Source: Sulfurospirillum oryzae | GTDB taxonomy: Bacteria; Campylobacterota; Campylobacteria; Campylobacterales; Sulfurospirillaceae | Direction of reading: 5' to 3' | Assembly: GCF_025770725.1 (NCBI RefSeq) | Contig: NZ_JANZKZ010000003.1 | Span: forward strand, 62,001 to 126,000 | DNA length: 64,000 nt | Shown here: piece after piece, positions 39,683 through 54,321 of the stretch | How the letters are laid out: the number at the start of each line of letters is the position of its first letter | Numbering within the stretch: position 1 is the stretch's first letter | Translations under genes and position numbers: made by a program | Notes under the pieces: generated by a model | The model's input: only the letters and a program-made list of their open reading frames with translations | The model's database searches: none | What the model was told of the DNA's origin: nothing

Positions 39683-40750
39683 ATGAAGGACTTTACACAA
39701 AAAATTTCAACTGCGGGATTATCAGTTGTTATGGTAGGTTCAATGTTGTTAGCATCAAGTGCATTAGCAGCAGATTATAAATTAGAGAGTGTTAAAGGTA
39801 CCCCTACAACGCTGGATGCAGGTGATGCTGCTTGGGCAAAAGCAAAAGAGGTTATCGTTCCATTGACCGAAACACCTTATCAGCCAGAAGGTTATAAAGG
39901 CATGACGAAATCAACAGCGGTGATTAAATCGCTTTATGACGATAAAAATATCTATATTAAACTTCAGTATGATGACCCAACCGAGAGCACGGCGCGCTTC
40001 CCATGGGTAAAACAAGCAGATGGTTCATGGAAGAGAATGAGTATAAAAGATCAAACGAAACATGAAAATGTTTACTATGAAGATAAGATGGCTATGTTTT
40101 GGAATATTAATACGAAAGGATTTGAGAAAAAAGGTTGTGCCATTGCTTGCCATCTTACTAAGGATGGTAAAAATAATGGCTTCCCTGATGATTCAGCGGG
40201 TAGAAAATATACGAACAACCCAGGTGAGTTTATCGATATGTGGCATTGGAAAGGCGTGAGAACAGGTTTACCATTCGATTTGATGCACGATCAGTATGTT
40301 GATAGTACCAATGATCCAAAACTTGCAGAAGAGTGGGGTAGAAAAGGTGATGAGTCGCTAGGTGGTGGTTATAAAGATAATTTCAATGCTGATAAAACAG
40401 GTCCTGCATTTATGAATAAAGATGCTAAAGATAATGCGATAGGTTCCATTAAAGAAGAAAATAAAATTCCTTTTGTAGATACATTCAAAGCAGGCGATTC
40501 AATTCCTGGAATTATTGTCAGTAAAATGAGCGGCTCTTCTGCTGATATTGTCACAAAGGCAGTTTGGAAAGATGGTAAATGGACAATGGTTATTAAGAGA
40601 GCACTTGTTACAACTCATCCAAAATCAGCAGAGCAAGACGTACAGTTTAATGATCTCAAGAAAAAATACTATTTTGGTGTTGCAGCGTTTGATAACTCTC
40701 AAATCAACCATGTGTACCATGATGGAAGTATAGAATTAACATTCAAATAA
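39683..40750 (+). CDS. Periplasmic haem-binding protein, ethylbenzene dehydrogenase-gamma-like
   Basis: A 355-residue exported protein with a signal peptide ending ALA|ADY near residue 31. The fold looks like the cytochrome c-552/DMSO reductase-type haem-binding domain (PF09459 type), with segments such as DDKNIYIKLQYDDPTES and the C-terminal VYHDGSIELTF. It contains GCAIACH (about residues 152-158), a CX3CH sequence resembling but one residue longer than the c-haem motif CXXCH. The ATG follows AAGGAG. With the next gene it may form an electron-transfer pair. The function is not known. Confidence 0.72.
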   Translation: MKDFTQKISTAGLSVVMVGSMLLASSALAADYKLESVKGTPTTLDAGDAAWAKAKEVIVPLTETPYQPEGYKGMTKSTAVIKSLYDDKNIYIKLQYDDPTESTARFPWVKQADGSWKRMSIKDQTKHENVYYEDKMAMFWNINTKGFEKKGCAIACHLTKDGKNNGFPDDSAGRKYTNNPGEFIDMWHWKGVRTGLPFDLMHDQYVDSTNDPKLAEEWGRKGDESLGGGYKDNFNADKTGPAFMNKDAKDNAIGSIKEENKIPFVDTFKAGDSIPGIIVSKMSGSSADIVTKAVWKDGKWTMVIKRALVTTHPKSAEQDVQFNDLKKKYYFGVAAFDNSQINHVYHDGSIELTFK

Positions 40751-40761
40751 AAGGATTCAGT

Positions 40762-41469
40762 GTGTCGATTCAACAACTCAACACACCAGCAAAAACAGCG
40801 ATATCGCTGTTTTTGCTCTTTGTGATAACCGCAACCATTTCATCAGTGATTTTGTTAGGGCTTGAACTCTCTGGTCAAAAAGATGGGCTCAATATACCGA
40901 CGATCACCCAGATACAAAACAAGTACACTACGCCCTTCATCGTCTCTGCAATGAAAGGAAGCATGAATAAAGAAGTTACGGATGATGAAGATATAGATAC
41001 GGTTCATAACTGGATTAACGATGGTGCTAAAAAAGAAGGTAAGCTCTATGAAGATGCTTGGAAAATCATACAAAAAGATTGTGCAAATTGCCACAGCAAA
41101 ACTTCAAAAATGACCAAAGCGATTCCTTCAATGCCTTTTGATACGTATGAGCAAGTATTAACACATACCGAGTCGGGTTATTCATGGTTAAAAATGTCCA
41201 AACAAGCACATATTCACATGTTTGGTATTTCAACTTTCTTAGTGCTCATCTCCTTGCTTTTTGCTTATACAACCTATAAAGATAGCATCAAAAATGTTCT
41301 GATTATAGGCTCTTTTGGCGGTGCATTTTTAGATATTTTTTCGTGGTGGTTTTCAAAATTTATTCCCGAACTCGTCTATCTTATTTTTGCGATGGGCGGC
41401 GTTATGGTCTCTTCGATACTGCTTATGAGTGTATTGGTATTAGCCAATATTTGGAAAAGAGAGGGGTAA
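40762..41469 (+). CDS. Membrane-bound monohaem cytochrome
   Basis: A 235-residue protein with an N-terminal membrane helix (about 13-35), a periplasmic part holding one c-haem site CANCH (about 109-113), and three C-terminal membrane helices (about 152-172, 180-200 and 207-230). Histidines such as those in SKQAHIHMFG could be distal ligands or bind haem b in the membrane. It starts at a GTG with AGGA upstream and lies 11 bases after the haem-binding protein gene. It probably links that protein to the quinone pool, which is inference. Confidence 0.75.
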   Translation: MSIQQLNTPAKTAISLFLLFVITATISSVILLGLELSGQKDGLNIPTITQIQNKYTTPFIVSAMKGSMNKEVTDDEDIDTVHNWINDGAKKEGKLYEDAWKIIQKDCANCHSKTSKMTKAIPSMPFDTYEQVLTHTESGYSWLKMSKQAHIHMFGISTFLVLISLLFAYTTYKDSIKNVLIIGSFGGAFLDIFSWWFSKFIPELVYLIFAMGGVMVSSILLMSVLVLANIWKREG

Positions 41470-41481
41470 AACCCTCTTTTT
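41460..41481 (+). terminator. Terminator after the membrane cytochrome gene
   Basis: AGAGGG at 41460-41465 pairs with CCCTCT at 41472-41477 and is followed by T residues. The stop codon of the cytochrome lies in the loop. Confidence 0.75.
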
Positions 41482-41539
41482 CATAGAGCTCTTGCAGAAC
41501 TTTTAACACGCTTTTCTCCAACAAACTTCTCCTTACGCA

Positions 41540-41594
41540 TTGACAATGAATATTTATTTGTGGTATATTTTCACATATAAATGATTGTTTATAT
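41540..41594 (+). promoter_or_regulatory. Promoter and dyad upstream of the ArsR-family gene
   Basis: TTGACA at 41540-41545 and TATATT at 41564-41569 are 18 bases apart. A 7-bp inverted repeat follows, ATATAAA at 41575-41581 with TTTATAT at 41588-41594, placed where a repressor would block transcription. It may be an autoregulatory site, but it does not match the ATATCAA dyad seen at 32284 and 42508. Confidence 0.6.
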
Positions 41595-41624
41595 AAATAA
41601 ACTTTTATATTAAAGGTTGATTAT

Positions 41625-41963
41625 TTGAGTCAAGGCAATAGTTTACAAGGATATTTACAAATCCTAAGCGACATCAATCGATTAAAAATTATTCAGTTTA
41701 TTGCTTATGATGAAAAAACGGTTTCTGAAATTGTTAATCAAACGAAATTATCGCAACCATTGGTGTCACATCATCTAAAAGTATTGAAAAACTACACTAT
41801 TTTAGACACTAAAAGAAATGGTCCTTTTATTCTCTATAAACTGCACAACACCGATCTTTTAGATATTTTGGGTTTATTGTGTGAGTTAATTTCTAAGGAC
41901 AATGAACTTGAAGACCCCATGTTTATACCTTCGCAAAAAAGAAAGGATAAAAAAGATGTTTAA
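41625..41963 (+). CDS. ArsR/SmtB-family transcriptional regulator
   Basis: A 112-residue winged-helix repressor-type protein. The recognition region is TVSEIVNQTKLSQPLVSHHLKVLKNY (residues 29-54), as in ArsR and SmtB. No cysteines are present, so it lacks the classic CXC arsenic site in helix alpha-3. It must sense by another site or another signal. It starts at a TTG. It overlaps the next gene by eight bases. Confidence 0.88.
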   Translation: MSQGNSLQGYLQILSDINRLKIIQFIAYDEKTVSEIVNQTKLSQPLVSHHLKVLKNYTILDTKRNGPFILYKLHNTDLLDILGLLCELISKDNELEDPMFIPSQKRKDKKDV

Positions 41964-42396
41964 AAATTTTACGCAATTTAACCCTGCTGGGAGGAGTTAT
42001 AAAAAGATGTTAAGTGATGAAAAAAAGCGACAGATTGAAGAGCTGTTAGAGACTCTTTTTTTAGAGATGAATAACGATGAAAAAGAAGAAGCAGTGATGC
42101 TTATGATGCCAAAGTTGATGCATTATGGAATGCCTACGATGAAAAATATGTGCCAATCTATGGCAGCAAGTATGTGCGGTATGGACTCAAAAGAGATGCC
42201 AAGTGAAAAGCAAACAATGGATTTTGGAAGTCCTGAGATCAAAGGGCTTTTTGAAGATTGGCTTACTCAAGTGCAAGAAGAGATAAAAAGTTACCTACAA
42301 TCCAATAACTCGGCAGGTGCTAAAGAGGTTGCGGAGTATTTAAAAATATCACAAGAGAGCGCAGATTATTTTATAAGCCTTATTGCAAAAGTTTAA
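41956..42396 (+). CDS. Met/Cys-rich protein of unknown function
   Basis: A 146-residue soluble protein I do not recognise. An amphipathic helical N-terminal part is followed by a methionine-rich stretch (residues about 44-80) including LMMPKLMHYGMP, KNMCQSMAASMCGMD. Two cysteines seven residues apart and many Met could bind Cu(I), As(III) or another soft metal. The C-terminal 60 residues are again helical (FEDWLTQVQEEIKSYLQ). It is read with the ArsR-family gene. A chaperone or metal-sensing partner of the downstream DGC proteins is possible but only inferred. Confidence 0.6.
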   Translation: MFKNFTQFNPAGRSYKKMLSDEKKRQIEELLETLFLEMNNDEKEEAVMLMMPKLMHYGMPTMKNMCQSMAASMCGMDSKEMPSEKQTMDFGSPEIKGLFEDWLTQVQEEIKSYLQSNNSAGAKEVAEYLKISQESADYFISLIAKV

Positions 42397-42507
42397 AAGT
42401 ATAGTATGTTCAATAAAAGGTTTTAACGCTCAGTAGAGAATTAAGATAATAAATTTTGTGCGCGAGTTATATACCAAATAGGGAATCAAAAATATTATCA
42501 TATCAAT

Positions 42508-42523
42508 ATATCAACATATATTG
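42508..42523. promoter_or_regulatory. ArsR-type operator core upstream of the DGC-protein operon
   Basis: ATATCAACATATATTG matches the centre of the ars-operon palindrome (32284-32299) at 15 of 16 positions. It is preceded by a further ATATCAAT at 42500. It lies 20 bases upstream of the ATG behind a GGAGG site. It suggests a common regulator for the two operons. Confidence 0.6.
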
Positions 42524-42542
42524 TTAAAAAAGGAGGACTTTT

Positions 42543-42929
42543 ATGGGAAATTGTAGTTGTGGATCAGCTAAAAAGAGTGAAGAAAGCACAAAGATAAAGC
42601 GAGTTTACGCTTGTTCTGGATGCGCTGATGTCGGCGAAGTTGCCGATAGCGTTAGCAGGCAATTACGTCATGATGGTTTTGCAAATGCAACGGCAAGTTG
42701 TTTGGTGGGAATAGGTGCTGGCATTGAAAGCTTTATCAAAGTTGCCAAAGAAACAGATGAAGTCATTACGATTGATGGATGTCCTATTGGGTGTGCTAAG
42801 TTAATGATGGAAAAAATAGGAATAAGCCCCACGAGTTATGTGTTGACGACTATGGGCTTGCAAAAAGGAAATGCAAAACCCACGAAGGAACTTGTGGAAG
42901 AAATTGCAACTAAAATTAAATCTTTATAG
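42543..42929 (+). CDS. DGC-domain putative zinc-binding protein 1
   Basis: A 128-residue protein of the DGC-domain (PF08859-type) family, whose Cys are thought to bind zinc or another metal. Cysteines appear in NCSCGS (residues 3-8), YACSGCADVGE (about 23-33), ASCLVGIGAG (about 57) and IDGCPIGCAKLMM (about 82-94). The motif DGCPIGCAK names the family. A GGAGG lies before the ATG. Family function is not established; related genes occur next to redox and metal-resistance genes. Confidence 0.75.
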   Translation: MGNCSCGSAKKSEESTKIKRVYACSGCADVGEVADSVSRQLRHDGFANATASCLVGIGAGIESFIKVAKETDEVITIDGCPIGCAKLMMEKIGISPTSYVLTTMGLQKGNAKPTKELVEEIATKIKSL

Positions 42930-42939
42930 GGAGAAGTTT

Positions 42940-43476
42940 ATGTACGAAGAGATAAAAATTGAAAAAATGGATGGCTATTGTAGTTCATGTGAAGATTATG
43001 CCAAAAAGCATACGACTCATCCAGCCAAAATAGCGATTATGTCGTGTGAAGGAGCTTGTTCGAAAGGAGAAGTATCTAGAAGAGCCGCCAATCTTATTGC
43101 GCATAAGCTTTCACCTGAAAATACCGTTAGAATTTGTTTGGGCGGTGCTTTTACCAAAGATGGAGGGCAGAGAAATTTAGTCAGACAGACGCATAAAGCT
43201 ATCGCGATTGAAGGATGTTTTATTGATTGTGCTTCACGAATGATGAAAGGGGTGATCCCTGAACTTGATGCGCTTGTTGTGCAAGCCGATAAGATTTATA
43301 AAAAGAATTTGCCTTTTGAAATGAACGAAGTTTCTGATGAAGTGTTTAATGAGTACGCAAGAATCGTAGCGGAAGAGATTGTCGAGAAGTATATTCATGG
43401 CGATGCGAAACCTGAGGTATCACAAAACACTACGTGTGAACCTGTGAGCGATAGAGGCTGTTGTTCTTGCTCATAA
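42940..43476 (+). CDS. DGC-domain putative zinc-binding protein 2
   Basis: A 178-residue relative of the preceding protein. It has GYCSSCEDYA (about residues 10-19), MSCEGACSKGEVSRRAANL (about 34-52), RICLGGAFTKDGGQ, EGCFIDCASRMMKG (matching the DGCPIGCAK position, but Glu for Asp) and a Cys-rich tail GCCSCS. It probably arose by duplication and carries an extra C-terminal helix of about 50 residues. The ATG at 42940 follows GGGAGAAG; a longer open frame exists but overlaps the previous gene without a ribosome binding site. Confidence 0.75.
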   Translation: MYEEIKIEKMDGYCSSCEDYAKKHTTHPAKIAIMSCEGACSKGEVSRRAANLIAHKLSPENTVRICLGGAFTKDGGQRNLVRQTHKAIAIEGCFIDCASRMMKGVIPELDALVVQADKIYKKNLPFEMNEVSDEVFNEYARIVAEEIVEKYIHGDAKPEVSQNTTCEPVSDRGCCSCS

Positions 43477-43481
43477 TGTGT

Positions 43482-43493
43482 TTTACATGTAAA
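43482..43493. repeat. Exact TTTACATGTAAA copy
   Basis: An exact intergenic copy between two convergent genes, immediately before the shared terminator hairpin. Confidence 0.85.
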
Positions 43494-43498
43494 GATGA

Positions 43499-43519
43499 AG
43501 AGCCCCAAAATGGAGCTCT
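43499..43519. terminator. Bidirectional terminator between DGC protein 2 and mnmA
   Basis: AGAGCCCC at 43499-43506 pairs with GGAGCTCT at 43512-43519 with one mismatch, and T or A tracts flank it. Confidence 0.65.
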
Positions 43520-43528
43520 TTATACGAC

Positions 43529-44548
43529 TTACGCTTCGATCCAGCCGCCACCTAGAACTAAATCATCCGCATAGACTACAAGTGCTTGACCGCTTGCCAG
43601 TCCATAAACACCCTCTTCGAGTTCTGCGATGATTTTACCCTCTTCAATTTTTACATGCGCCTTAGCTTGTGGGCTTCTATAGCGCACTTTCACGCCATAC
43701 ATTCCCTCTTTAAAATCTTCTGGCAAGGAGAAGTTTTGTGCCACAACACGTTTTTGCAAAAGTTCCTCTTTGGTACCTGCGACAACGGTATTGGTTTTAG
43801 CATCGATGCCCACGACAAAATGCGGGTCATGCGCGCCGTTGATGGTAAGCCCTTTGCGTTTGCCGATGGTGTAGTGCATGTAGCCTTTGTGCTCACCGAT
43901 GACCTTCCCACTGGTGTCTTTCACCACCCCTTTTTGATCGACATTGATATGTTTTTTTAACACCTCGATGTATGTGTCGGTAACAAAACAGATCTCTTGT
44001 GATTCTTTGTAGGTTTCAAGTGTGCCAAGCCAAGGCAATTTTTCCAAAGCAATGGGTTTAATGTCCTCTTTTTTCATGCCACCGAGTGGGAAAAGAATCT
44101 TTTCAATCACCTCTTTTTTGAGCCCAAAAAGGAAGTAGCTTTGATCTTTACTCATATCATAAGCTTCTTGAATGTGACCCTCTTTTATGCGCGCATAGTG
44201 TCCAGTCGCGATTTTTTCGCAGCCCATCTCCATCGCTTTTTCAAAGGCAAAGCCAAATTTCATGCGTGGATTACAAAAGGCACATGGATTGGGCGTTAAG
44301 CCTTGCTCGTATGATCTGACAAAATAGTCATACACATGCTCTTTAAAAAGGGCTTTGGCATCAATAACGTGCGTTTCGATGTTCAAATATTTGCTTACTT
44401 TTTCAATATTAGCGATGTTAACCGCGTGTTTTTTCTCATCCTCGTGAAGTTTGAGATAGATACCAATAACCTCATGACCTTGCTCTTTCAGCAAGTAAGC
44501 GGAGTAACTAGAGTCAATGCCTCCGCTCATTAGTAGTGCAACTTTCAT
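43529..44548 (-). CDS. mnmA: tRNA-specific 2-thiouridylase
   Basis: A 339-residue enzyme that thiolates U34 of tRNA for Lys, Glu and Gln. The PP-loop is [14 protein letters not shown] (residues 7-20). The catalytic cysteines are in [12 protein letters not shown] (about 93-104) and the conserved QEICFV (about 184-189). Length is typical for Campylobacterota. Confidence 0.94.
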
Positions 44549-44632
44549 AGTAATTCTCTTTTATTTACAATTTCGACGTCTAAAGAGTAAAAGTCTTTAC
44601 GTTTCGTGTTAGCCCAAAAATAGGGCACCGTT

Positions 44633-45853
44633 TTATCCTAAGGCTTGGTCAATATCTGCGATCAAGTCTTCCACATCTTCAATACCCACAGAGAGGCGAA
44701 TCATACCCTCCGTGAGTCCAAAAGCGGCTTTTTGTGCTTCGGAGTATTCCGCGTAAATCGTATGGTACGTTGCAATGGCTAGAGATTTGTTATCTTGGAC
44801 ATTTGTGCCTCGTTTGATGATATTGAGGCGATTTAAAAATGCGTATGTCGCTTCTTTATCTTTAAAGCTAAAACTCACAATGCCACCACCGCCACTAAAT
44901 TGTTTTGAAGCGTTAACGTATGCTGATGAGCCCTCTAAAAAAGGGTATTCCACGCTGATGATTTCAGTTTTTGTTTGCAGGTGTTTGGCTACTGTAAGTG
45001 CGTTAGAACAGCTTCGTTTGACGCGCAAATCCATGGTCTCAAGTCCTAAAGATAGCAGGTAAGCACTTTGAGGTGAAAGTGAAGCCCCTAGATTTCTAAA
45101 GGTCTCTTTGCGAAGGCGTGCGATAAACGCATTGGGTCCAAATTTCTTATAGTAAGGCTCTAAATTGGCGTGATTTTTCCAGTTAAAGGTACCATTATCG
45201 ACGATCAAACCACCAAGGACATGTCCGCCGCCTGAAATGTATTTGGTCGCAGAGATAATCTCAATATCCACACCATGTTTTTTTGCATTAAAGATGTTCC
45301 AAGGCGTTGCCGTTGTATCGACGATAAGAGGCACATTTTGCTCTTTTAAAACACTTTTAATCGCCTCAAAATCAGGCACAATGAGCTGAGGATTACTGAC
45401 ACTTTCACAAAAAAGAAAGCGTGTTTTAGCATCAATATTGGCTTTAATTGCCTCCAAATCGCTCAAATCTACATAACGCACTTCAATGCCAAAATCACTG
45501 AAAAGTGTTTGGAAAAGGGAGAGCGTATTGCCAAAAAGGTACTGCGTGGTAATGATGTTATCGCCACTTTTTAAAAGTGCAAACAGCGCATTTGAGATGG
45601 CAGCCATACCCGTAGCGGTTGCGATGACACCAAAAGCGCCACTGATCGCTTTGATTTTGAGTTCAAACTCTTCAATAGAAGGATTTGAGGAGCGTGTATA
45701 TACATGCCCCATCTTTTGACCTTTGAAAACGGCTTCGAGGTCTTCTGCTTTTTCAAACTCAAAGGCTGAACTTTGGTAGATAGGGAAGCGCATTGCGCCA
45801 TGTTGATCTTTGTGTGCTGGTTTGGCATGCAATGCTTTGGTGGTAAATCCCAT
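44633..45853 (-). CDS. metY: O-acetylhomoserine sulfhydrylase
   Basis: A 406-residue PLP enzyme of the Cys/Met metabolism family. The N-terminal TKALHA...PIYQSSAFEF, the substrate loop YTRSSNPS (about 51-58) and the PLP lysine in SATKYISGGGHVLGG (about 203-217) identify it. In Wolinella succinogenes the same enzyme takes sulfur from the thiocarboxylate of HcyS rather than free sulfide. The hcy genes next door suggest that here too. A structured leader element fills the gap to the upstream gene, and AAGGATA precedes the ATG. Confidence 0.88.
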   Translation of the reverse strand: MGFTTKALHAKPAHKDQHGAMRFPIYQSSAFEFEKAEDLEAVFKGQKMGHVYTRSSNPSIEEFELKIKAISGAFGVIATATGMAAISNALFALLKSGDNIITTQYLFGNTLSLFQTLFSDFGIEVRYVDLSDLEAIKANIDAKTRFLFCESVSNPQLIVPDFEAIKSVLKEQNVPLIVDTTATPWNIFNAKKHGVDIEIISATKYISGGGHVLGGLIVDNGTFNWKNHANLEPYYKKFGPNAFIARLRKETFRNLGASLSPQSAYLLSLGLETMDLRVKRSCSNALTVAKHLQTKTEIISVEYPFLEGSSAYVNASKQFSGGGGIVSFSFKDKEATYAFLNRLNIIKRGTNVQDNKSLAIATYHTIYAEYSEAQKAAFGLTEGMIRLSVGIEDVEDLIADIDQALG

Positions 45854-45874
45854 AAAAATATCCTTATTTTGAAT

Positions 45875-46000
45875 GTAAATCAGCTATCGAAAAAACCCTT
45901 TCTCGGCACGGTTGAGGCACGATGGGAGCCCCGAAACGCTCCGCTTATTCGTCCCATCGGCTCAAAGTGTCTCGTGCGGAATTTTTTCTACGCGATTTAC
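45875..46000 (-). ncRNA. Structured leader element A upstream of metY (riboswitch-like)
   Basis: This 126-base element fills the gap between the cysG-like stop and metY. Its outer arms pair: GTAAATC 45875-45881 with GATTTAC 45994-46000. Further inside, GAAAAAA 45889-45895 pairs with TTTTTTC 45982-45988, TTGAG 45912-45916 with CTCAA 45961-45965, and CGATGGGA 45920-45927 with TCCCATCG 45952-45959. The 64-base core (45907-45970) matches the element upstream of sirA at 62 positions, while the outer arms differ in sequence but still pair. This is covariation evidence for RNA structure. I cannot match it to a known riboswitch class. Confidence 0.75.
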
Positions 46001-46001
46001 G

Positions 46002-46013
46002 TTTACATGTAAA
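46002..46013. repeat. Exact TTTACATGTAAA copy supplying a stop codon
   Basis: This copy is read in the third frame by the cysG-like gene, where it gives Tyr-Met-stop. It therefore sits at the 3' end of that gene and directly abuts structured leader element A. Confidence 0.85.
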
Positions 46014-47271
46014 TAATTTTGCCGCTATTCTCGGCTGGTAAAATGTTCTCTTTTGCGACACACTCACCGATGATTAAGACCGCTGGTGTGGCACATAATG
46101 TCGCCATTTTATCCAATTTTCCCACAGTTCCCACTATGGTTACTTGATCGGGCAGGTCAATCTTCGATACAAATGCGGCAGGAAGATTGGGGTTGATGTT
46201 CTGTTTGGCTATGGCATCTTGGATTTTTTTTGCAAAACTGTGCGCCATTAAAACAATGACCGTATGCAAAGGCTGTTTTAAAATGCTCACCCAATCATCG
46301 TTAAAAAGCGTCTCTCTTAGGTGCGCCGAGACGATGGTCACCCCTTTGGAAATGTCACGAATCGTTGGCACAATGCCTGAAACAGTACAAGAGCGAAGGG
46401 CTGAGGTAATGCCATTGATCACCTCAAAGGAGATGCCATGTTGCGCCAAAACTTGTTTCTCTTCGCCGAGCCTTCCAAACAGAAGCGGGTCGCCTCCTTT
46501 GAGACGTCCGACAACAAGCCCTTGTTTGGCGTAGTCCACTAAAAGAGTGTTGATTTCATCTTGACTTTTGGAGTGAAACCCCTTCTTTTTGCTGACATCT
46601 ACCACTTTACATGTAAGGGGAATGAGAGAGCGAATCTCCTCAGAGACCAGAGCATCCACCAACGCAACATCGAGTAGTTCAAACGCATTCAACGCATCTA
46701 ACGTGAGGTTACCCACATACCCAGTTCCACAGCCGATCAAAAAGACTTTTCCCACACCTGCTTTGGCAATGTCTCGAAGTTTTTCGAGGTCACGGTCTGG
46801 TTTTTTGCGCTCGTTTTTCAGTCTGTCAATGAGTGACGTGAGGTCATGCGGTAAAATCTTTTCGATCTTATCGCGAATGACTTGCGCTAAAGTAGGCGAA
46901 CTTCCACCACTGCTGACCGCGACTTGAATGTCTCCACGACGGGTAAGCGCGCTAAAGTAAAAATCGCAGAGTTCAGGAACATCCACGACATTGAGCCAAA
47001 AATGATGAATCGGTTTCAGGGCGACCAAACGCTTGGTCACCTGCTCATTGCCTGTCGCGTCAATAATCACCTCAAAGCCCTCTGCATCAGCATCCTCAAA
47101 CGCTTTACATGTAAAGATTTTGGATTCAAAATAGGCATCTAGCCTTGATGCTGCGACGATTTCGTACGCAAAATCAAGACTGTCCAGTACGCGCGCTTTT
47201 TGTGCGGCGACTTTGCCCGCCCCAATCAAAAGCGTGCGTTTAGGCGTGAGTGCGATGCCTAAGGTACTCAT
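46003..47271 (-). CDS. cysG: Siroheme synthase: precorrin-2 dehydrogenase plus uroporphyrinogen-III methyltransferase
   Basis: A 422-residue bifunctional protein making siroheme precursors for sulfite reductase. The N-terminal half is a CysG-N domain with LLIGAGKVAAQKARVLD (about 14-30) and VAVSSGGSSPTLAQVIRD. The C-terminal half is a SUMT domain with VFLIGCGTGYVG, GRLKGGDPLLFGRLGEE (about 252-268) and GITSALRS. Three palindrome copies touch it: FTCK at 47104, LTCK at 46606, and the stop codon at 46002. The start overlaps the sirA stop, so the genes are coupled. Confidence 0.88.
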   Translation of the reverse strand: MSTLGIALTPKRTLLIGAGKVAAQKARVLDSLDFAYEIVAASRLDAYFESKIFTCKAFEDADAEGFEVIIDATGNEQVTKRLVALKPIHHFWLNVVDVPELCDFYFSALTRRGDIQVAVSSGGSSPTLAQVIRDKIEKILPHDLTSLIDRLKNERKKPDRDLEKLRDIAKAGVGKVFLIGCGTGYVGNLTLDALNAFELLDVALVDALVSEEIRSLIPLTCKVVDVSKKKGFHSKSQDEINTLLVDYAKQGLVVGRLKGGDPLLFGRLGEEKQVLAQHGISFEVINGITSALRSCTVSGIVPTIRDISKGVTIVSAHLRETLFNDDWVSILKQPLHTVIVLMAHSFAKKIQDAIAKQNINPNLPAAFVSKIDLPDQVTIVGTVGKLDKMATLCATPAVLIIGECVAKENILPAENSGKIIYM

Positions 47272-49553
47272 TTTTTAACGATCCTTACGCGCCAGCCATT
47301 ACCCTCTTTCGTGGTTGCTTCGACGGTGTGACCTTCACTTGCCACCGATTTTGGCACGTTATCAATCGGTGCTCCATCATCAAGTAAAATCTCCAAGACT
47401 TCACCGCTTTTAATTCTTGAGAGTTCCATCTTCGTTTTCACAAAGTTCATCGGACACGCAACACCGCTAAGGTCTTTAAAATGGGCTGACTTTTCTTCTT
47501 TAGGCGCATTCGCAGCCGCAGCCAACTCTTTTTCTTTCGCAAATTTAAGGGTATTATCCATTGTCTTGTAAAGCTTGATAACTTCTTCTGCCAGCTCGAT
47601 AGATTTCTCATCGGCATCACCCTCTAACATCGTTCCAAAATAGGCGTTGAGCAGTGTCGTGTCGATAAAAAGTGTTTTAAAGGCTTTTAGTACGCCTGCT
47701 TTATCCCTAGCATCTTCTCCACGAGTCACAAGAAGCATACGAGCAGACAAGAGACGAATCAGCTCATAGTCTTTTTCCTCTTTCTCTAAAGCCTCTTTAA
47801 GAGCCTTTTTATCGGCTTCGATAAGGTCGTACATACCTGCACTACATTCGCCTGTTCCTCTTCCTTTGAGTGAGAAGAGTTCTACCGCATCATAGTCAAA
47901 GTAAGGGTTTTTATCCTCTTTGAACGAAGGGATATCAACGTATTTTTTAGAAATATCTTCAATTATTTTGAGTCCGCCATCATCGATCCAGTCTGCAAAG
48001 CTCTCGTATTTTTTAACGAGTGGAAGCCATGTGTTGAGAACTTCTTCCACAAATGCTGGAAGATGGAAAGCTGCAACATCGCCACATTTTTGAGCAAACA
48101 CAGTACCTTCGCCACTGGTGCGATTCCCTGCTACGACATTGTACGCTGGGTAGGAGTACCCCTCATTACGTTGTACTTTTCCAAAAAATCCAAGATCGCC
48201 AATGAGGTGTTTTCCACAACTGTTTGGACAACCGGAGAGGTGAATTTTAAAGCCTTGTAATTGGTCATAATCGTATTGATCGAAAAGTTTAACAAGACGT
48301 TTTTGAATCGCTTCTACCGCACCACGAGGACGAGCAATACCCAGCTGACACGTTGCCGCACCCGTACACGCGACCATATCGCCAAAGAAGGTTGGTTTAG
48401 AAACATCTTTGGAGAAGTTTTGAAGGACATCATGCAATGTAATCATCTGTGAAGCCGTGAGGTTACGGATGTAAAGGTTTTGGTCGCCTGTAAAACGAAG
48501 CACATCATCACCAAATGGAAGCAGTGCATTGGCAAGGGCACGCGCATTTTCAAAATGAACATCACCTAGATACACAGGCACTTTACAACCATAAAGTCCC
48601 TCTTGTTTTTGCGCATAAACGTAACGATTCCACCATTTTTTATACGCTTCTGGCACTACAAATGGCTCATCTTTGGTGTTGCCAATGGTTCGCTCAATCT
48701 CTACAATCGGCAACTCCCAGTCGCCTTTGGCTTTGAGGGCTTCAATCTCAACGTTGACGAGTCTTCTAAACTCATCCATTCCTAGTTCTTCAAGCAAGAA
48801 GCGAAGACGTGCGGCATGTTTGTTTTTGCGGTTACCATTTTGGTCAAACACTTGTTTAATCGCTTGAGAGTATAAAAAGACTTCCGTGTCTGGTACAAAA
48901 TCAAGGAATTTAGTTCCTACACGAGATTTTGCACCCATACCACCTGCGACAAAGAGCTTAAAGCCTTTGACACCGTCTTGAATTTTCGCGATAAACCCTA
49001 CATCATGGATGGTCGCATAACCGCGGTCTGCTTCTGAACCACTAAAGGTAATTTTGAATTTACGAGGCAGTGCAAATGAGTCCTTTTGCTCAAGCATTTT
49101 TGTTGTAATCGCAAGTGCATAAGGTGAAACATCAAATATTTCATCTTTGGCTGTACCCGCAAGTGGGTCAGCAGTAACGTTACGAACGGTATTGCCACCG
49201 CCACCACGACCACTGAGTCCGATACTGTGCAGCACTTCGATAATGTTGATAATATCTTCGATTTTGACATAGTGAAGTTGCGCACCACCACGGGTGGTAA
49301 TGTGAATCGCTTCATGCGCGTACTTTTCAGCTAAGTCAGATAACGTTAAAAGTTGTTTTGGCGTTAGGATGCCGCCTGCTAGTTTGATGCGCACCATAAA
49401 GGTATTGGCTTCGCGCTGTTCATACACACCAAAAGGGACACGCATTGTTTTAAAGGTAAGCTCATCAAGCGTTCCAGCCAAAAACTCGGCATGGTTTTTT
49501 TTGAAAACTTCCAAGTCATCGTAGACGAGTTGGGGGATAATATAGTGACTCAT
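47268..49553 (-). CDS. sirA: Siroheme sulfite reductase with C-terminal TusA-like domain
   Basis: A 761-residue fusion. Residues 1-550 form a nitrite/sulfite reductase with ferredoxin-like repeats (TTRGGAQLHYV about 78-88) and the siroheme/[4Fe-4S] cysteines in CTGAATC (CX5C) and SGCPNSC (CX3C). A helical middle part of about 120 residues follows. The last 70 residues (LSGVACPMNFVKTKMELS onward) are a TusA/SirA-type sulfur-transfer domain with its conserved Cys-Pro. It would reduce sulfite to sulfide and may hand sulfur on directly. In Wolinella the SirA protein feeds HcyS. Structured leader B precedes it. Confidence 0.85.
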   Translation of the reverse strand: MSHYIIPQLVYDDLEVFKKNHAEFLAGTLDELTFKTMRVPFGVYEQREANTFMVRIKLAGGILTPKQLLTLSDLAEKYAHEAIHITTRGGAQLHYVKIEDIINIIEVLHSIGLSGRGGGGNTVRNVTADPLAGTAKDEIFDVSPYALAITTKMLEQKDSFALPRKFKITFSGSEADRGYATIHDVGFIAKIQDGVKGFKLFVAGGMGAKSRVGTKFLDFVPDTEVFLYSQAIKQVFDQNGNRKNKHAARLRFLLEELGMDEFRRLVNVEIEALKAKGDWELPIVEIERTIGNTKDEPFVVPEAYKKWWNRYVYAQKQEGLYGCKVPVYLGDVHFENARALANALLPFGDDVLRFTGDQNLYIRNLTASQMITLHDVLQNFSKDVSKPTFFGDMVACTGAATCQLGIARPRGAVEAIQKRLVKLFDQYDYDQLQGFKIHLSGCPNSCGKHLIGDLGFFGKVQRNEGYSYPAYNVVAGNRTSGEGTVFAQKCGDVAAFHLPAFVEEVLNTWLPLVKKYESFADWIDDGGLKIIEDISKKYVDIPSFKEDKNPYFDYDAVELFSLKGRGTGECSAGMYDLIEADKKALKEALEKEEKDYELIRLLSARMLLVTRGEDARDKAGVLKAFKTLFIDTTLLNAYFGTMLEGDADEKSIELAEEVIKLYKTMDNTLKFAKEKELAAAANAPKEEKSAHFKDLSGVACPMNFVKTKMELSRIKSGEVLEILLDDGAPIDNVPKSVASEGHTVEATTKEGNGWRVRIVKK

Positions 49554-49570
49554 AATCGTAACTCCTTATC

Positions 49571-49582
49571 GTTACATGTAAA
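49571..49582. repeat. Palindrome-family copy before sirA
   Basis: GTTACATGTAAA, one base from consensus, lies about 20 bases upstream of the sirA start codon, between the start and leader element B. Confidence 0.75.
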
Positions 49583-49591
49583 CGTTTTAAT

Positions 49592-49720
49592 GAAGAAGGC
49601 AGCTTCGAAATAAATCCTCTTGCAACACGGTTGAGACACGATAGGAGCCCCGAAACGCTCCGCTTATTCGTCCCATCGGCTCAAAGTGTTTTATTCGGAT
49701 TTTTTCTACGCGCCTTCTTC
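49592..49720 (-). ncRNA. Structured leader element B upstream of sirA (riboswitch-like)
   Basis: The second copy of the leader found before metY. The outer arms are GAAGAAGGC 49592-49600 and GCCTTCTTC 49712-49720, fully paired but different in sequence from those of element A. Next, GAAATAAATCC 49607-49617 pairs with GGATTTTTTC 49697-49706. The core (49626-49689) differs from element A at two positions. One of these turns a G-C pair of the central stem into a G-U pair in the transcript, keeping the fold. The unpaired segments beside the outer stem (AGCT...TC and TACGC on the plus strand) are conserved in both. It abuts the hcyD stop. Confidence 0.75.
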
Positions 49721-49721
49721 G

Positions 49722-50123
49722 TTACTCTAAAATTATTTGGATCTCTTCTTTTTCAACCGTTTTATTTTTAATAATAAAGGACTTCATATCAGGCGTTTCA
49801 CCTGCTAATGAAACAATAATATAGCTTACATTTGGATCAAATGCCAAGCGAATATCTTCCTCGCTTGGACGTGCTGGTGTCTCTGGGTGAGAGTGGTAGA
49901 CAGAAATGAGTCTAAGACCCTCTTTTTGCGTCTTTTTAAACGCGTCAAACTGCTCTTGCGGATCAAAACTGAAGTGCTCGTTGCTCGCATCGGTGTTCTT
50001 CATAGGAATGGCGTATTTTACTTCGCCATTCAGTCCCGCAAGATAACCACATGCTTCAATGGGTGTATCTTTTAAGGCGTGTGCGACGATCTCATCGTAC
50101 ACACTTTGTGGGATTTTAATCAT
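49722..50123 (-). CDS. hcyD: JAMM metalloprotease of the homocysteine pathway
   Basis: A 133-residue M67-family protease. The zinc site is the JAMM motif HSHPETPARPSEED (about residues 77-90), with the two His and the Asp in the right spacing; the assisting Glu is in PIEACGYLAG. By analogy with Wolinella HcyD it trims the C-terminal Ala from HcyS and later releases homocysteine from the carrier. It overlaps hcyF by four bases. Confidence 0.88.
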   Translation of the reverse strand: MIKIPQSVYDEIVAHALKDTPIEACGYLAGLNGEVKYAIPMKNTDASNEHFSFDPQEQFDAFKKTQKEGLRLISVYHSHPETPARPSEEDIRLAFDPNVSYIIVSLAGETPDMKSFIIKNKTVEKEEIQIILE

Positions 50124-50926
50124 AGCTTTGCCTCACACACAACCGCTTCATAATCTCGTATCTCTTTGATGCCTTCCCCTCCGCATACACGGCATTTAGG
50201 ATTTTTCTTGAAATTCACATTTCTAAAGTTCATGCTTTTCGCATCAAAGGTTAAGAGTCTGTTGTAGAGTGGCTCACCTACACCGACGATGTATTTGAGC
50301 GCTTCTGCTGCTTGAATGGTTCCTAACATTCCCGCAACCGCTCCTAAAATGCCCGCACTTGAACATGTTGGAATGGCATTCGCAGGTGGTGGGCTGTCAA
50401 ACACACACGCGTAACACGCACTCTCATGAGGTTTAATCGTCATCGTTTGTCCGCCAAAGCGTAAAATGCCACCGTGAGAGTAGGGGACATTGGCTAAAAC
50501 ACACGCATCATTGATTAAAAATTTGGATGAAAAGTTATCTGTTCCATCAATGACGAAATCATAGCCTTTGACGATGTCCAAGATATTGGACGCGTCCAAA
50601 AACTTTTGGTACACCGTTACTTTGACATTGGGATTGATCGCTTCCATCTTCGCTTTCGCCGAGAGCACTTTGGATACACCGATGTCTGCTGTGGCATGAA
50701 TCACTTGGCGTTGAAGGTTTGAAAGATCAACGACGTCACCATCCACGATGCCGATTTCCCCAACGCCTGCGGCGGCTAGGTAAAGTGCCACAGGAGAGCC
50801 AAGCCCACCCGCACCGATGACTAAAACTTTTGAATTGGCAATTTTCTCTTGCCCCTCAATACCGACATCTTGGAGGATAATATGGCGTGAATAACGCTCT
50901 AATTCCTCATCGCTAAAATCTCTCAC
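50120..50926 (-). CDS. hcyF: E1-like adenylyltransferase activating HcyS
   Basis: A 268-residue ThiF/MoeB-type enzyme. The ATP-binding motif GAGGLGSPVALYLAAAGVG is at about residues 38-56, followed by DLSNLQRQVIH. A zinc-binding pair is in the C-terminal CRVCGG, the other pair being CYACVF. It would adenylate the C-terminal glycine of HcyS. It overlaps hcyS and hcyD by four bases each, so the three are coupled. MoeB or ThiF function is possible, but the JAMM and MetY neighbours favour HcyF. Confidence 0.85.
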   Translation of the reverse strand: MRDFSDEELERYSRHIILQDVGIEGQEKIANSKVLVIGAGGLGSPVALYLAAAGVGEIGIVDGDVVDLSNLQRQVIHATADIGVSKVLSAKAKMEAINPNVKVTVYQKFLDASNILDIVKGYDFVIDGTDNFSSKFLINDACVLANVPYSHGGILRFGGQTMTIKPHESACYACVFDSPPPANAIPTCSSAGILGAVAGMLGTIQAAEALKYIVGVGEPLYNRLLTFDAKSMNFRNVNFKKNPKCRVCGGEGIKEIRDYEAVVCEAKL

Positions 50927-51129
50927 GCGCCACCTCCCATAAAATATAAAAAGTTAATCTCATCGCCCTCTTTAAGTGCAATCGTTGGGTACTCGTCTTG
51001 TCTTCTAAACTCATCATTGAGCTGAACGGATACCATCTCTGGCATTTCGACGTTTTCAATGATCAATAATTCAGTTAGAACGATCCCGTCCTTAATCTCT
51101 TTGACATCGCCGTTAATGGTTAATTTCAT
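50923..51129 (-). CDS. hcyS: ThiS/MoaD-like sulfur carrier protein
   Basis: A 68-residue ubiquitin-fold protein ending FMGGGA. Sulfur carriers act through a free C-terminal Gly-Gly, but this one ends with an extra Ala. This is exactly the feature described for Wolinella HcyS, whose Ala is removed by the JAMM protease HcyD. The start follows AAGGAAAG. It is the sulfur donor for MetY in protein-thiocarboxylate homocysteine synthesis. Confidence 0.9.
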   Translation of the reverse strand: MKLTINGDVKEIKDGIVLTELLIIENVEMPEMVSVQLNDEFRRQDEYPTIALKEGDEINFLYFMGGGA

Positions 51130-51154
51130 TTCTTTCCTTTTATATTAAATTAAA

Positions 51155-51253
51155 GCACCAAAGGTGCGCGGGCTCACTGCCGAAGTGAACCCAGTGTTAA
51201 CGTAGCTTTGAGAGCTTTGCCCTCAAAGCGTGTAGAGAGTTCTTCAAGAACTC
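51155..51253. other. Array of four hairpins between cysN and hcyS
   Basis: The 127-base gap holds four consecutive stem-loops: GCACC/GGTGC (51155-51167), GGGCTCACT/AGTGAACCC (51170-51192, one mismatch), GCTTTGAG/CTCAAAGC (51205-51229) and GAGTTCTT/AAGAACTC (51237-51253). None ends in a T run on the coding strand, so they look like mRNA-processing or stability structures rather than a terminator. Confidence 0.6.
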
Positions 51254-51256
51254 GCC

Positions 51257-52630
51257 TTAATGGAACTGATGTGGAAAATGTTTGCGAAGCAAAGCAAAAA
51301 GCTCCTCTTCAAACTCTGCACTGGTGCTTGCTTTGTCGACTAAAACATTGTTTACGTTTATTGCTTTGGTTCGTCTTGTTGTGTATTGCTCTAAAACCTC
51401 AGTGATGATGCCACCACCTGCGATGTCAAACTCATCGACAATGACAAAGCGACCTAGTTTTTGGTTTTCAGCAAAAAGTTCCATCGCCAAAAGATCGTGT
51501 ACTCTAAAGATGACGCATGCCGCTTCGTGACGACCCACGCTTGGCTCATCGGCACGATCTAGGGTATCGCCATCGATCACGCGTTTGATCTCTTCAAGGT
51601 AAATCGTGCTTTGCGCCGAACCTATTTTGATCTTGTACGGTTTATCAAGCTCTAGCGGTTTTGCGCCCAACCAAAAGAGGTTGGCTTCAAAACGGTTGCT
51701 CACTCGTGGCGCACTTTGATCAGCTCTGGCTACCACGTCACCGTTTCGCACGTAAATTTGTGTTTCAAGCGTAAAACCAATCGCCTCGCTCTCTTTGACA
51801 CTCGTTTTTACTTCGGTGTTAAAGCTCTCGATGCTTGCGACTTTCGAGCGTTTCAAAGAAGGGTAAAAAACCACTTCATCGCCGACATTCAGTTCTCCAC
51901 TCGTAACGGTACCCGCATAGATACGGCGGTCATCGTTGTCACGTGTAAACTTGTACACATCTTGCAATGGCATTCTAAAGTCATCATTCTCTTTTTCTTC
52001 CACGCTTTTGAAACTATCTAAAATTTCTAAAACAGTAGCCCCTTTATACCATGGCGTTGAAGCAGAATGCTCGATGAGATTCACACCTTCACGCGCACTG
52101 ATCGGTATAAAGATGTCGCTTTTAATGCCCAGTGTTGCGAGGTATTCGCTGTACTCAATTTTGAGCTTATTAAAAGCGATTTCACTAAAATTGACCAAAT
52201 CCATTTTGTTAACGACAATCGCGACTTGTTTGATGCCCAAAAGAGAGAGCAACATGCCGTGGCGTTTGGAATTTTCAGCCACACCCTCTTTGGCGTCAAT
52301 GAGAAGCAGTGCCGCCTCAGCACGAGACGCTCCACTGATCATGTTTTTCAAAAATTCGATGTGACCGGGTGCATCGATGATGATATACTCTCGTTTTTTA
52401 CTTTGGAAAAAGACGCGCGCACTGTCTATGGTAATGCCTTGTTTTTGCTCATCGGCTAGTGCGTCGAGCAAGAAGGCATACTCAAAAGGGCGTGCATTGT
52501 TTTCACACATCTTTTTCACACTCTCTAGTTTTCCTTGTGGCAATGAGTCAGTGTCGGCAAGCAGACGCCCGATGAGCGTACTTTTGCCGTGATCGACGTG
52601 CCCTGTGATGACAATATTGAGTCTTTGCAT
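51257..52630 (-). CDS. cysN: Sulfate adenylyltransferase large (GTPase) subunit
   Basis: A 457-residue translation-factor-type GTPase that drives ATP-sulfurylase activity of CysD. G1 is GHVDHGKST (residues 10-18), G3 is DAPGH (about 89-93) and G4 is VVNKMDLV (about 142-149). EF-Tu-like domains 2 and 3 follow. No APS kinase (CysC) is fused to it. It starts one base into the cysD stop region. Confidence 0.93.
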
Positions 52631-53508
52631 TACATGTATCCTTCTTTTCTTAGTGCTTCGAGCGTTCCGCCGCCATCTTTATCTTGAGCCCTTCCTGAGC
52701 GTTCAGCGATGTCTTTAAACTTCCCACTGGTGAGCTCTTCGATGATCTCTTTTGGCGTTGTTGCCACAGAATCCACTGGAGCCGTACATGGAAAACAGCC
52801 TAAAGAGCGGTAACGTTTTCCATTGCCTTGGTTAAAATAGAGGTTGATAATAGGAATATTCTCCCTCTCGATGTACTCCCAAATGTTAAGTTCCGTCCAC
52901 TCTAAGAGAGGATGAATGCGCACATGAGTGCCTGGTGCAAAGTCCGTTTTGTACTGATTCCAAAGCTCTGGCGGTTGCGTACTGGCATCCCATTCGCTCT
53001 TTTCATCACGTGCTGAAAAGACACGCTCTTTTGACCTGCTTCCCTCTTCATCAGCACGTACACCTACGATCACACCCGTATAGGGCGCTCCGTTTAACTC
53101 ATCTTCCCATATTTTTTTGTAAGGGTTCCATTTACGGCGTGCCCATGTACCATCCAGCGTGTATTTGAGTGCGTCGCTTTTAAGTTTTTTACAACAACTT
53201 AGTCTGTCCAATCCATTCACAAAGGTTTCGCCCTTAGCCAAGGCTTCTTTGTTTTGTCCCACCACGAGGTTTAAGTCCCATTGAATCGCTATTTCATCGC
53301 GGTAGCGAATCATCTCAGGAATTTTAAACGCTGTATCAATGTGTACCAATGGGTAAGGTACATGCCCAAAAAATGCTTTTCGTGTGAGCCATAAGAGTAC
53401 TGTGCTGTCTTTTCCTATGCTCCAAAGCATGGCAAGGTTTGGGAAGCTTCGATAGGCTTCTCGCAAAATATAGATACTCTGAGCTTCGAGTCTGTCTAAA
53501 TGATCCAT
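52630..53508 (-). CDS. cysD: Sulfate adenylyltransferase small subunit
   Basis: A 292-residue PP-loop ATP pyrophosphatase-type enzyme making APS from sulfate and ATP. The motif [15 protein letters not shown] lies at residues 27-41. The family segments [17 protein letters not shown] (about 149-165) and the C-terminal [14 protein letters not shown] are present. It works with CysN encoded directly downstream. Confidence 0.94.
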
Positions 53509-53628
53509 CTTTAATCCTTAAGTCATTTTTAACACGCATCACAAGCAAAGCTTGCGATGACTGCGCTAACGCTGAGTTTTCTTCGGCAGAATGCCCGCGC
53601 TTCGCTTTTGCAACCTTGTTGTGGTCGC
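53509..53628. other. Structured gap between cysH and cysD
   Basis: This 120-base spacer within the operon is rich in dyads. The best is a 9-bp hairpin at 53538-53558, with arms ATCACAAGC and GCTTGCGAT around AAA; in the minus-strand transcript the one imperfect pair becomes G-U. A smaller GCG/CGC hairpin sits beside it. No gene or promoter is clear. Like the cysN-hcyS gap it may affect mRNA processing. Confidence 0.5.
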
Positions 53629-54321
53629 TTATTCTTTATGCAGATGCAATCCGCACTCTTTATGTTCTGGGTTTTCCCACCACCATCTGCCCGCTCGTAT
53701 ATCTTCGCCCTCTTTAATGGCTCTCGTACAGGGCTTACAACCAATGCTTTTAAACCCTTTAGCATATAAGGTGTTTTGAGGTATGGCATTTTCGCGCATG
53801 TAACGCTCAACATCTTCATCGCTAAAGTGAGTAAGAGGGTTGAATTTTAACAGTTCAAATTTATCATCAAACTCGACCAGTTTAGTGTCACTTCTCGTGA
53901 TGGACTGCGCGATGCGAATACCGCTAATCCAGCCATCATATCCTTTCAATGCCTTAGCTAAAGGGATGATCTTGCGAACATGGCAACACTCTTTGCGTAG
54001 ATGAATATCATCAAAGATGCCGTATTCTCCGACCTTTACTTCCAATGCTTTGATTTGCTCGTCGCTTGCGCTAAAGCGTTGGATTGTGATGCCAAAAAAG
54101 GCTTCAATCTCTTTTTCATACGTGATGGATTCAGAAAACAGTTTATGGGTCTCAAGCGTAAAGACATCAAAATTAATGCCTGCTTTTTGAGCAAGAAAGA
54201 TGTTAATGGCATCTTCATTTTGATGGCTAAATGCCAACGTGACTTTAAGAGCTTTGGCTCCAACGAGTTCTTGAAGTGTGTTAATCGCTTCTGCGATTTT
54301 TGTTTCATAAGCGATACTCAT
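53629..54321 (-). CDS. cysH: Assimilatory adenylylsulfate (APS) reductase, [4Fe-4S] type
   Basis: A 230-residue CysH-family enzyme. It has the Cys pair in ECCHVRK, a second pair in GCKPCTR and the C-terminal catalytic ECGLH. The CC...CXXC set binds a [4Fe-4S] cluster in enzymes that use APS directly instead of PAPS. That agrees with the absence of CysC in this cluster. I place the start at the ATG at 54321, overlapping the upstream stop as ATGA; the longer open frame is not supported. Confidence 0.9.
   Translation of the reverse strand: MSIAYETKIAEAINTLQELVGAKALKVTLAFSHQNEDAINIFLAQKAGINFDVFTLETHKLFSESITYEKEIEAFFGITIQRFSASDEQIKALEVKVGEYGIFDDIHLRKECCHVRKIIPLAKALKGYDGWISGIRIAQSITRSDTKLVEFDDKFELLKFNPLTHFSDEDVERYMRENAIPQNTLYAKGFKSIGCKPCTRAIKEGEDIRAGRWWWENPEHKECGLHLHKE

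Follow-up and report, generated by a model that had tools for sequence, protein, structure and literature searches.

The cysG-metY gap of Sulfurospirillum oryzae is filled by an imperfect palindrome with a close relative in the mec-sirA gap of the same operon, and this locus raises the question of whether the two act as a switch for the genes that follow them. An initial annotation had taken them for a candidate new regulatory RNA placed before metY and sirA. We consider it likely that both are copies of one dispersed, mobile family of imperfect-palindrome DNA elements in Campylobacterota and not a metY/sirA switch. The family, which is undescribed in Rfam and in the literature searched, probably behaves as a mobile, selfish and non-autonomous element. 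The window referred to below is the whole 64-kb stretch of DNA that was analysed.

Two palindromes in one operon

The operon lies on the minus strand and runs cysH, cysD, cysN, thiS, a thiF-like gene, a mec-like JAB gene, element 2, a sirA-like gene, a cysG-like gene, element 1 and metY, followed by mnmA (Table 1). Element 1 starts 2 nt past the cysG stop codon and ends 21 nt ahead of the metY ATG, and the mec-sirA gap is likewise filled by element 2. The 126-base element and its partner described in the initial annotation are both present, and the 62/64-identical core common to them was reproduced by alignment. Their outer arms are unlike each other and each pair of arms is fully paired, as had been described, and the sole paired difference between the cores is a C to T change opposite G, which confirms the reported replacement of a G-C by a G-U pair. 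On the transcribed strand the fold z-scores are -2.2 for element 1 and -5.3 for element 2, and the reverse strand folds nearly as well (-2.5 and -4.8, respectively), so that the acting strand is not readable from the fold. The core had no chance match in 100 shuffled versions of the window, and the home genome contains two copies of the family, both in the window. An Rfam scan of positions 40000-54000 (14 kb) gave no relevant match even at E≤10, and a scan of four loci with diverged homologues gave no relevant one at E≤1; the placing of the elements outside the known SAM and SAH riboswitch classes is in agreement with this.

Table 1. Coordinates of the two palindromic elements, their parts and neighbouring features in the window
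Feature	Position	Strand	Remark
metY (Cys_Met_Meta_PP)	44633..45853	-	flanking gene
Element 1	45875..46000	-	whole imperfect palindrome, cysG-metY gap
Element 1, outer arm GTAAATC (+ strand)	45875..45881	.	partner is 45994-46000
Element 1, conserved core	45893..45980	-	covariance-model match, 108.1 bits
Element 1, outer arm GATTTAC (+ strand)	45994..46000	.	partner is 45875-45881
cysG-like siroheme synthase	46003..47271	-	flanking gene
sirA, sulfite/nitrite reductase with C-terminal TusA domain	47268..49553	-	flanking gene
Element 2	49592..49720	-	whole imperfect palindrome, mec-sirA gap
Element 2, outer arm GAAGAAGGC	49592..49600	.	partner is 49712-49720
Element 2, conserved core	49612..49699	-	covariance-model match, 105 bits
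Element 2, outer arm GCCTTCTTC	49712..49720	.	partner is 49592-49600
mec-like JAB-domain protein	49722..50123	-	flanking gene
Second, unrelated palindromic repeat family, copy	51152..51233	+	cysN-thiS gap, same operon
Second palindromic repeat family, another copy	53527..53606	-	cysH-cysD gap

Other features of the region may be recorded here. In the SirA-like protein the C-terminal TusA domain is joined to two NIR_SIR domains, and proteins of the sulfur-carrier type of cysteine synthesis (ThiS, ThiF and JAB) are encoded beside it. The second palindromic repeat family of Table 1, unrelated to the first, matches the home genome at 33 places, of which two lie within the metY/sirA operon. Within the 64-kb window a 12-bp palindrome, TTTACATGTAAA, is found at 13 sites (e.g. 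at 2829, 7859, 43482, 46002 and 59914), often in intergenic positions adjoining hairpins, and is a candidate binding site or repeat; TTACATGTAA occurs 28 times in the window.

Core, covariation and arms

The elements of the family are about 110-150 bp long and are built around a conserved hairpin core, which measures about 88 nt and has bulges at fixed positions. The Sulfurospirillum subtype of the core reads ACAC-T-TTGAG-CC-GATGGG ... GGGG ... CCCATC-GTG ... CTCAA-CC-GTGT, and a second subtype of the same architecture, AACGATTCTGCAACGGAAGGGTCAAA ... TTTGGGGTACCCACCGTGAAGCC, is common outside Sulfurospirillum. Counted in alignments fitted to the covariance model, and therefore leaning towards that model, 97.6% of the pair cells in a set of 45 sequences are standard pairs and two-sided changes are present in 15 of 20 pairs, compared with 6.3 in shuffles. 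Among 41 more distant copies, counted in the same way, 21 of 24 pairs carry two-sided changes, with 142 cells of this kind against 5 with one-sided changes. The covariation signal was lost in a control in which the partner column was shifted by one. The covariation first seen between the two window copies is thus upheld, and covarying homologues are many when a covariance model is searched across Campylobacterota.

Wobble pairs are scarce and near equal on either strand. A preference of G-U pairs for the operon strand was considered and failed on the larger set (16 versus 7, p=0.09), and was also unsupported by folding of both strands, where the modelled strand was slightly more stable than the opposite one. 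Two-sided changes with scarce wobbles are the trace expected of a constraint or correction at the level of the DNA palindrome, and they lend no support to one RNA strand. Abundant covariation, usually regarded as proof of a functional RNA, can accompany a DNA palindrome that flips and sits inside genes.

The arms mostly differ from site to site and pair with a median energy of -13.4 kcal/mol with their own partner, compared with -7.8 kcal/mol with the arms of other sites. It is conceivable, if rather improbable, that terminator-like hairpins already present receive the core in their loops and that the arms are those of the target. This explanation is compatible with a mobile palindrome and departs from it solely in where the arms come from. 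The mostly site-specific arms and the frequency of intergenic hairpins in these genomes point in this direction, as does an empty hairpin, AAGCG-TAG-CGCTT, in G001 where G017 has an element between AAGC and GCTT. However, the empty cysG-metY sites are without such a hairpin, and arms can travel with the element, since several copies outside Sulfurospirillum have the outermost arms TTAGACTTCTT/AAGAAGTCTAA in common. Nested arms were seen at the mec-sirA site of three loci (L036 6991-7120, L037 7051-7175 and L038 7159-7283), where a newer core with its arms lies inside older remnant arms.

Distribution, orientation and insertion into genes

A first covariance model, representing the core, was run on 19 good-quality Sulfurospirillum genomes at E≤0.1 and matched in all of them, with 1-4 copies each and strong matches in 17. 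The weak matches in G013 and G005 (E 0.07), each the only match in its genome, lie over the metY start and were dropped, as their fold is unlike that of the family. The second covariance model, built on the 45 sequences and run on 397 sampled genomes of the phylum, identified the family in 39 of these and in 15 of 68 genera, which makes it an unclassified structured element of at least 15 genera of Campylobacterota. Most genomes have 1-4 copies, a low number for a transposon. BLAST of the window copies and other copies against plasmids and phages gave no match. Scanning with a pattern of the core gave 12 matches in genome contigs and 2 in viral contigs, about the number expected by chance, none of which passed the covariance model, and a pattern of the second subtype had no match in viral contigs. 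No described element of like kind was found in the literature on Sulfurospirillum or Arcobacter repeats.

The genes next to the element are functionally mixed, and no single pathway is associated with it across genomes. The neighbours include recQ, dxr, hypB/hypC, dnaK, mutS, trpE, nif, mnmG and flavodoxin genes and also metE, metX and metY, and most copies outside the two window sites adjoin unrelated genes. At four sites the neighbour is a methionine or sulfite gene (sirA, metY, metX and metE), which is more than expected when judged by eye and in a category chosen afterwards. Convergent and divergent gene pairs are also found among the element sites, and the copy between hypB and hypC has the same orientation in five genomes.

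Orthologous sites are occupied in both orientations. At the mec-sirA site the element is sense to the operon in 8 Sulfurospirillum genomes and antisense in 7, and at the cysG-metY site it is sense in 5 and antisense in 3, with flanks and arms kept across these differences. The L043 copy is inverted, yet 97.7% identical to element 2 across the full length. A gene tree of cysG, thiF-like and cysN genes implies at least four changes of orientation at mec-sirA and at least two at cysG-metY. The guaB-metX site carries opposite orientations in G017 and G015 and is empty in the related species G001 and G005; at the metE site, in a non-Sulfurospirillum family, the element has the sense orientation in G044 and G170 and is reversed in the sister species G305, with flanks that are recognisably the same. 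The orientation upstream of the supposedly regulated genes is consequently not fixed. No flip was observed within a strain. The cysG-metY site is without element in L042 and L053, and in five other Sulfurospirillum species the arms of this gap hold the core of the second palindromic repeat family instead of the first. Such copies, present at some orthologous sites and absent from others, are dispersed in the manner of miniature transposable elements (MITEs), and the divergence between empty and filled sites at cysG-metY and guaB-metX is too great for a target-site duplication to be read. The metX gene of one relative (G014:C1:572384-573460) is interrupted by three stop codons in the alignment from the search and therefore looks like a pseudogene.

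Copies were also found inside protein-coding genes. In a nucleosidase-like gene (PNP_UDP_1) the core is in-frame at the same place and in opposite orientations in G002 and G011, where it adds about 35 amino acids with no counterpart in the G021 homologue. In G368 the valS gene also contains a copy in its reading frame, and the alignment to solved ValRS structures, which alone were compared, stops at the element. A tailed-phage-like prophage of G215, with terminase, head, sheath and baseplate genes, harbours about 15 copies in its gaps. These are single copies on both strands and, in L194 (2041-2352, 6355-6782 and 9149-9570), tandem arrays of 3-4 units with a period of 111-114 bp.

These distributions bear directly on the proposal of a ligand- or protein-binding cis-regulator of metY and sirA, which they contradict: the same two gaps carry the element in opposite orientation in other species with conserved flanks and arms, the cysG-metY gap may lack it or hold an unrelated palindromic core, most other copies lie beside unrelated genes, the nucleosidase gene contains it in opposite orientations in two species, and the metE copy is inverted in a sister species. 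One would not expect a cis-regulator to keep its function whichever way it points at its own site, beside genes of no common pathway and within coding sequence, all of which a dispersed palindrome permits. Of the novel regulatory RNA that had been put forward, the real, structured and covarying element absent from Rfam has stood, and the regulatory role for metY and sirA has not; the elements would accordingly be without such a role in this operon.

Probable mobility, strand bias and relation to known elements

A mobile or selfish palindrome is the most likely explanation because the neighbours are unrelated, both orientations occur at one spot and copies lie inside protein genes. As a possible mechanism, the palindrome would extrude as a hairpin during replication, and polymerase template switching between the arms would keep these complementary, which would account for arms that are paired yet site-specific. 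At times template switching may invert the spacer, so that a copy would flip in place without a dedicated recombinase. On the simplest assumption, the core would be kept because a putative factor needed for spread recognises the bulged core. Template switching between inverted-repeat arms is known to homogenise the arms and to invert the spacer (PMC8604942), and it creates or maintains perfect stems with compensatory changes (PMC8794818). The documented inversions concern very short spacers (2-5 bp substitutions) (PMC8604942, PMC8794818), far shorter than the approximately 110 nt here, and the inversion step is hence an extrapolation. Because the element is found in both orientations at orthologous sites, template switching and the mobility of hairpins can be tested on natural sequence. 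The family could be tied to no transposase, reverse transcriptase or recombinase, and none of the neighbour genes read was recognised as a transposase.

In copies from outside Sulfurospirillum, the modelled strand runs antisense to co-directional neighbours at 26 sites and sense at 3 (p about 1.5e-5; loci L174-L213), a count that leaves out other non-Sulfurospirillum copies, which add three of each orientation, and that becomes 22:3 once one orthologous site is merged. Sulfurospirillum has no such bias (19:18). In single-contig genomes beginning at dnaA, the modelled strand follows the replichore for 10 of 11 copies outside Sulfurospirillum and for 11 of 17 within, although G015 in the latter set does not start there. 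A neutral mobile element does not predict the 26:3 bias unless insertion follows the direction of replication. Gene and fork direction are confounded, and an insertion bias for the lagging strand and a strand-specific role in mRNA are therefore both possible, leaving room for a strand-dependent role. Speculatively, and with rather low probability, the family may represent a phylum-wide class of hairpins, built on a core of about 88 nt, that either moves as single-stranded DNA and favours one strand of replication or works in mRNA from the strand opposite to the model. Its arms would be formed or mended locally through template switching, and its enzyme or factor would lie outside described systems.

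Somewhat less probable still is an mRNA element inside operons that serves processing, stability or the uncoupling of neighbours in a general way. It would act from the complement of the modelled strand, and in Sulfurospirillum either hairpin would suffice for it. The 26:3 bias is consistent with such a role, as are the short gaps to both genes, the stable fold on either strand and the constant orientation between hypB and hypC; it is opposed by the even orientation in Sulfurospirillum, the in-gene copies, the convergent and divergent sites and the slightly greater stability of the modelled strand, and the bias itself is confounded with replication direction. A riboswitch or protein-binding leader answering to sulfur or methionine status is very unlikely: the conserved, covarying structure and the position of copies before metY, sirA, metX and metE would suit it, but at all four sites related species have the element in both orientations, which largely refutes the proposal, and two empty cysG-metY sites, mostly unrelated neighbours, copies within a coding gene, a position internal to the operon and the lack of any visible expression platform add to this. 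Least probable of all is a programmed switch in which a recombinase flips the core between inverted arms and so varies expression within a population, for although the core is inverted between conserved arms at several sites, no recombinase was recognised beside the copies, and the window arms, only 7-9 bp long and differing between sites, provide no common recombination site. Three further identities were rejected. Nothing in the copies read pointed to the integrase or cassette array of an integron attC site, several copies have other bases in place of the conserved triad of group II intron domain V, and an intrinsic terminator is disfavoured by mostly co-directional flanking genes and the lack of a constant T-run.

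The palindrome described here shares traits with several known systems. Like MITEs, it is short, non-coding, dispersed and hairpin-forming, lies in either orientation and is often found between operon genes, but it has no family-wide terminal inverted repeat, the TTAGACTTCTT ends being confined to a subset outside Sulfurospirillum, and no parent transposase among the neighbours read. REPs, whose marks are a GTAG-flanked hairpin and an associated tyrosine (Y1) transposase, are likewise extragenic palindromes with conserved bulges, and a GCGTAG beside the arm in some Sulfurospirillum copies recalls their GTAG; however, this motif is not kept in other copies, and the core of about 88 nt exceeds the 20-40 nt of REPs. 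As a structured RNA adjoining methionine genes in the window the element could resemble a SAM or SAH riboswitch, from which it differs in having no Rfam match and in an orientation and gene association unfit for a riboswitch. The closest in behaviour appear to be the Rickettsia palindromic elements, for which we know of no identified mechanism of spread. These are about 100-150 bp long and are found in intergenic regions and in-frame within protein-coding genes (PMC10969869, PMC1950309). The family described here is similarly a palindrome of about 110-150 bp with intergenic copies and with in-frame copies in the nucleosidase gene and probably in valS, but it belongs to another phylum and has a conserved centre, site-variable arms and few copies; the comparison is one of behaviour and not of sequence, and suggests a likeness, not membership of the Rickettsia elements or of any MITE family. 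It adds a gene-inserting, in-frame palindrome outside Rickettsia.
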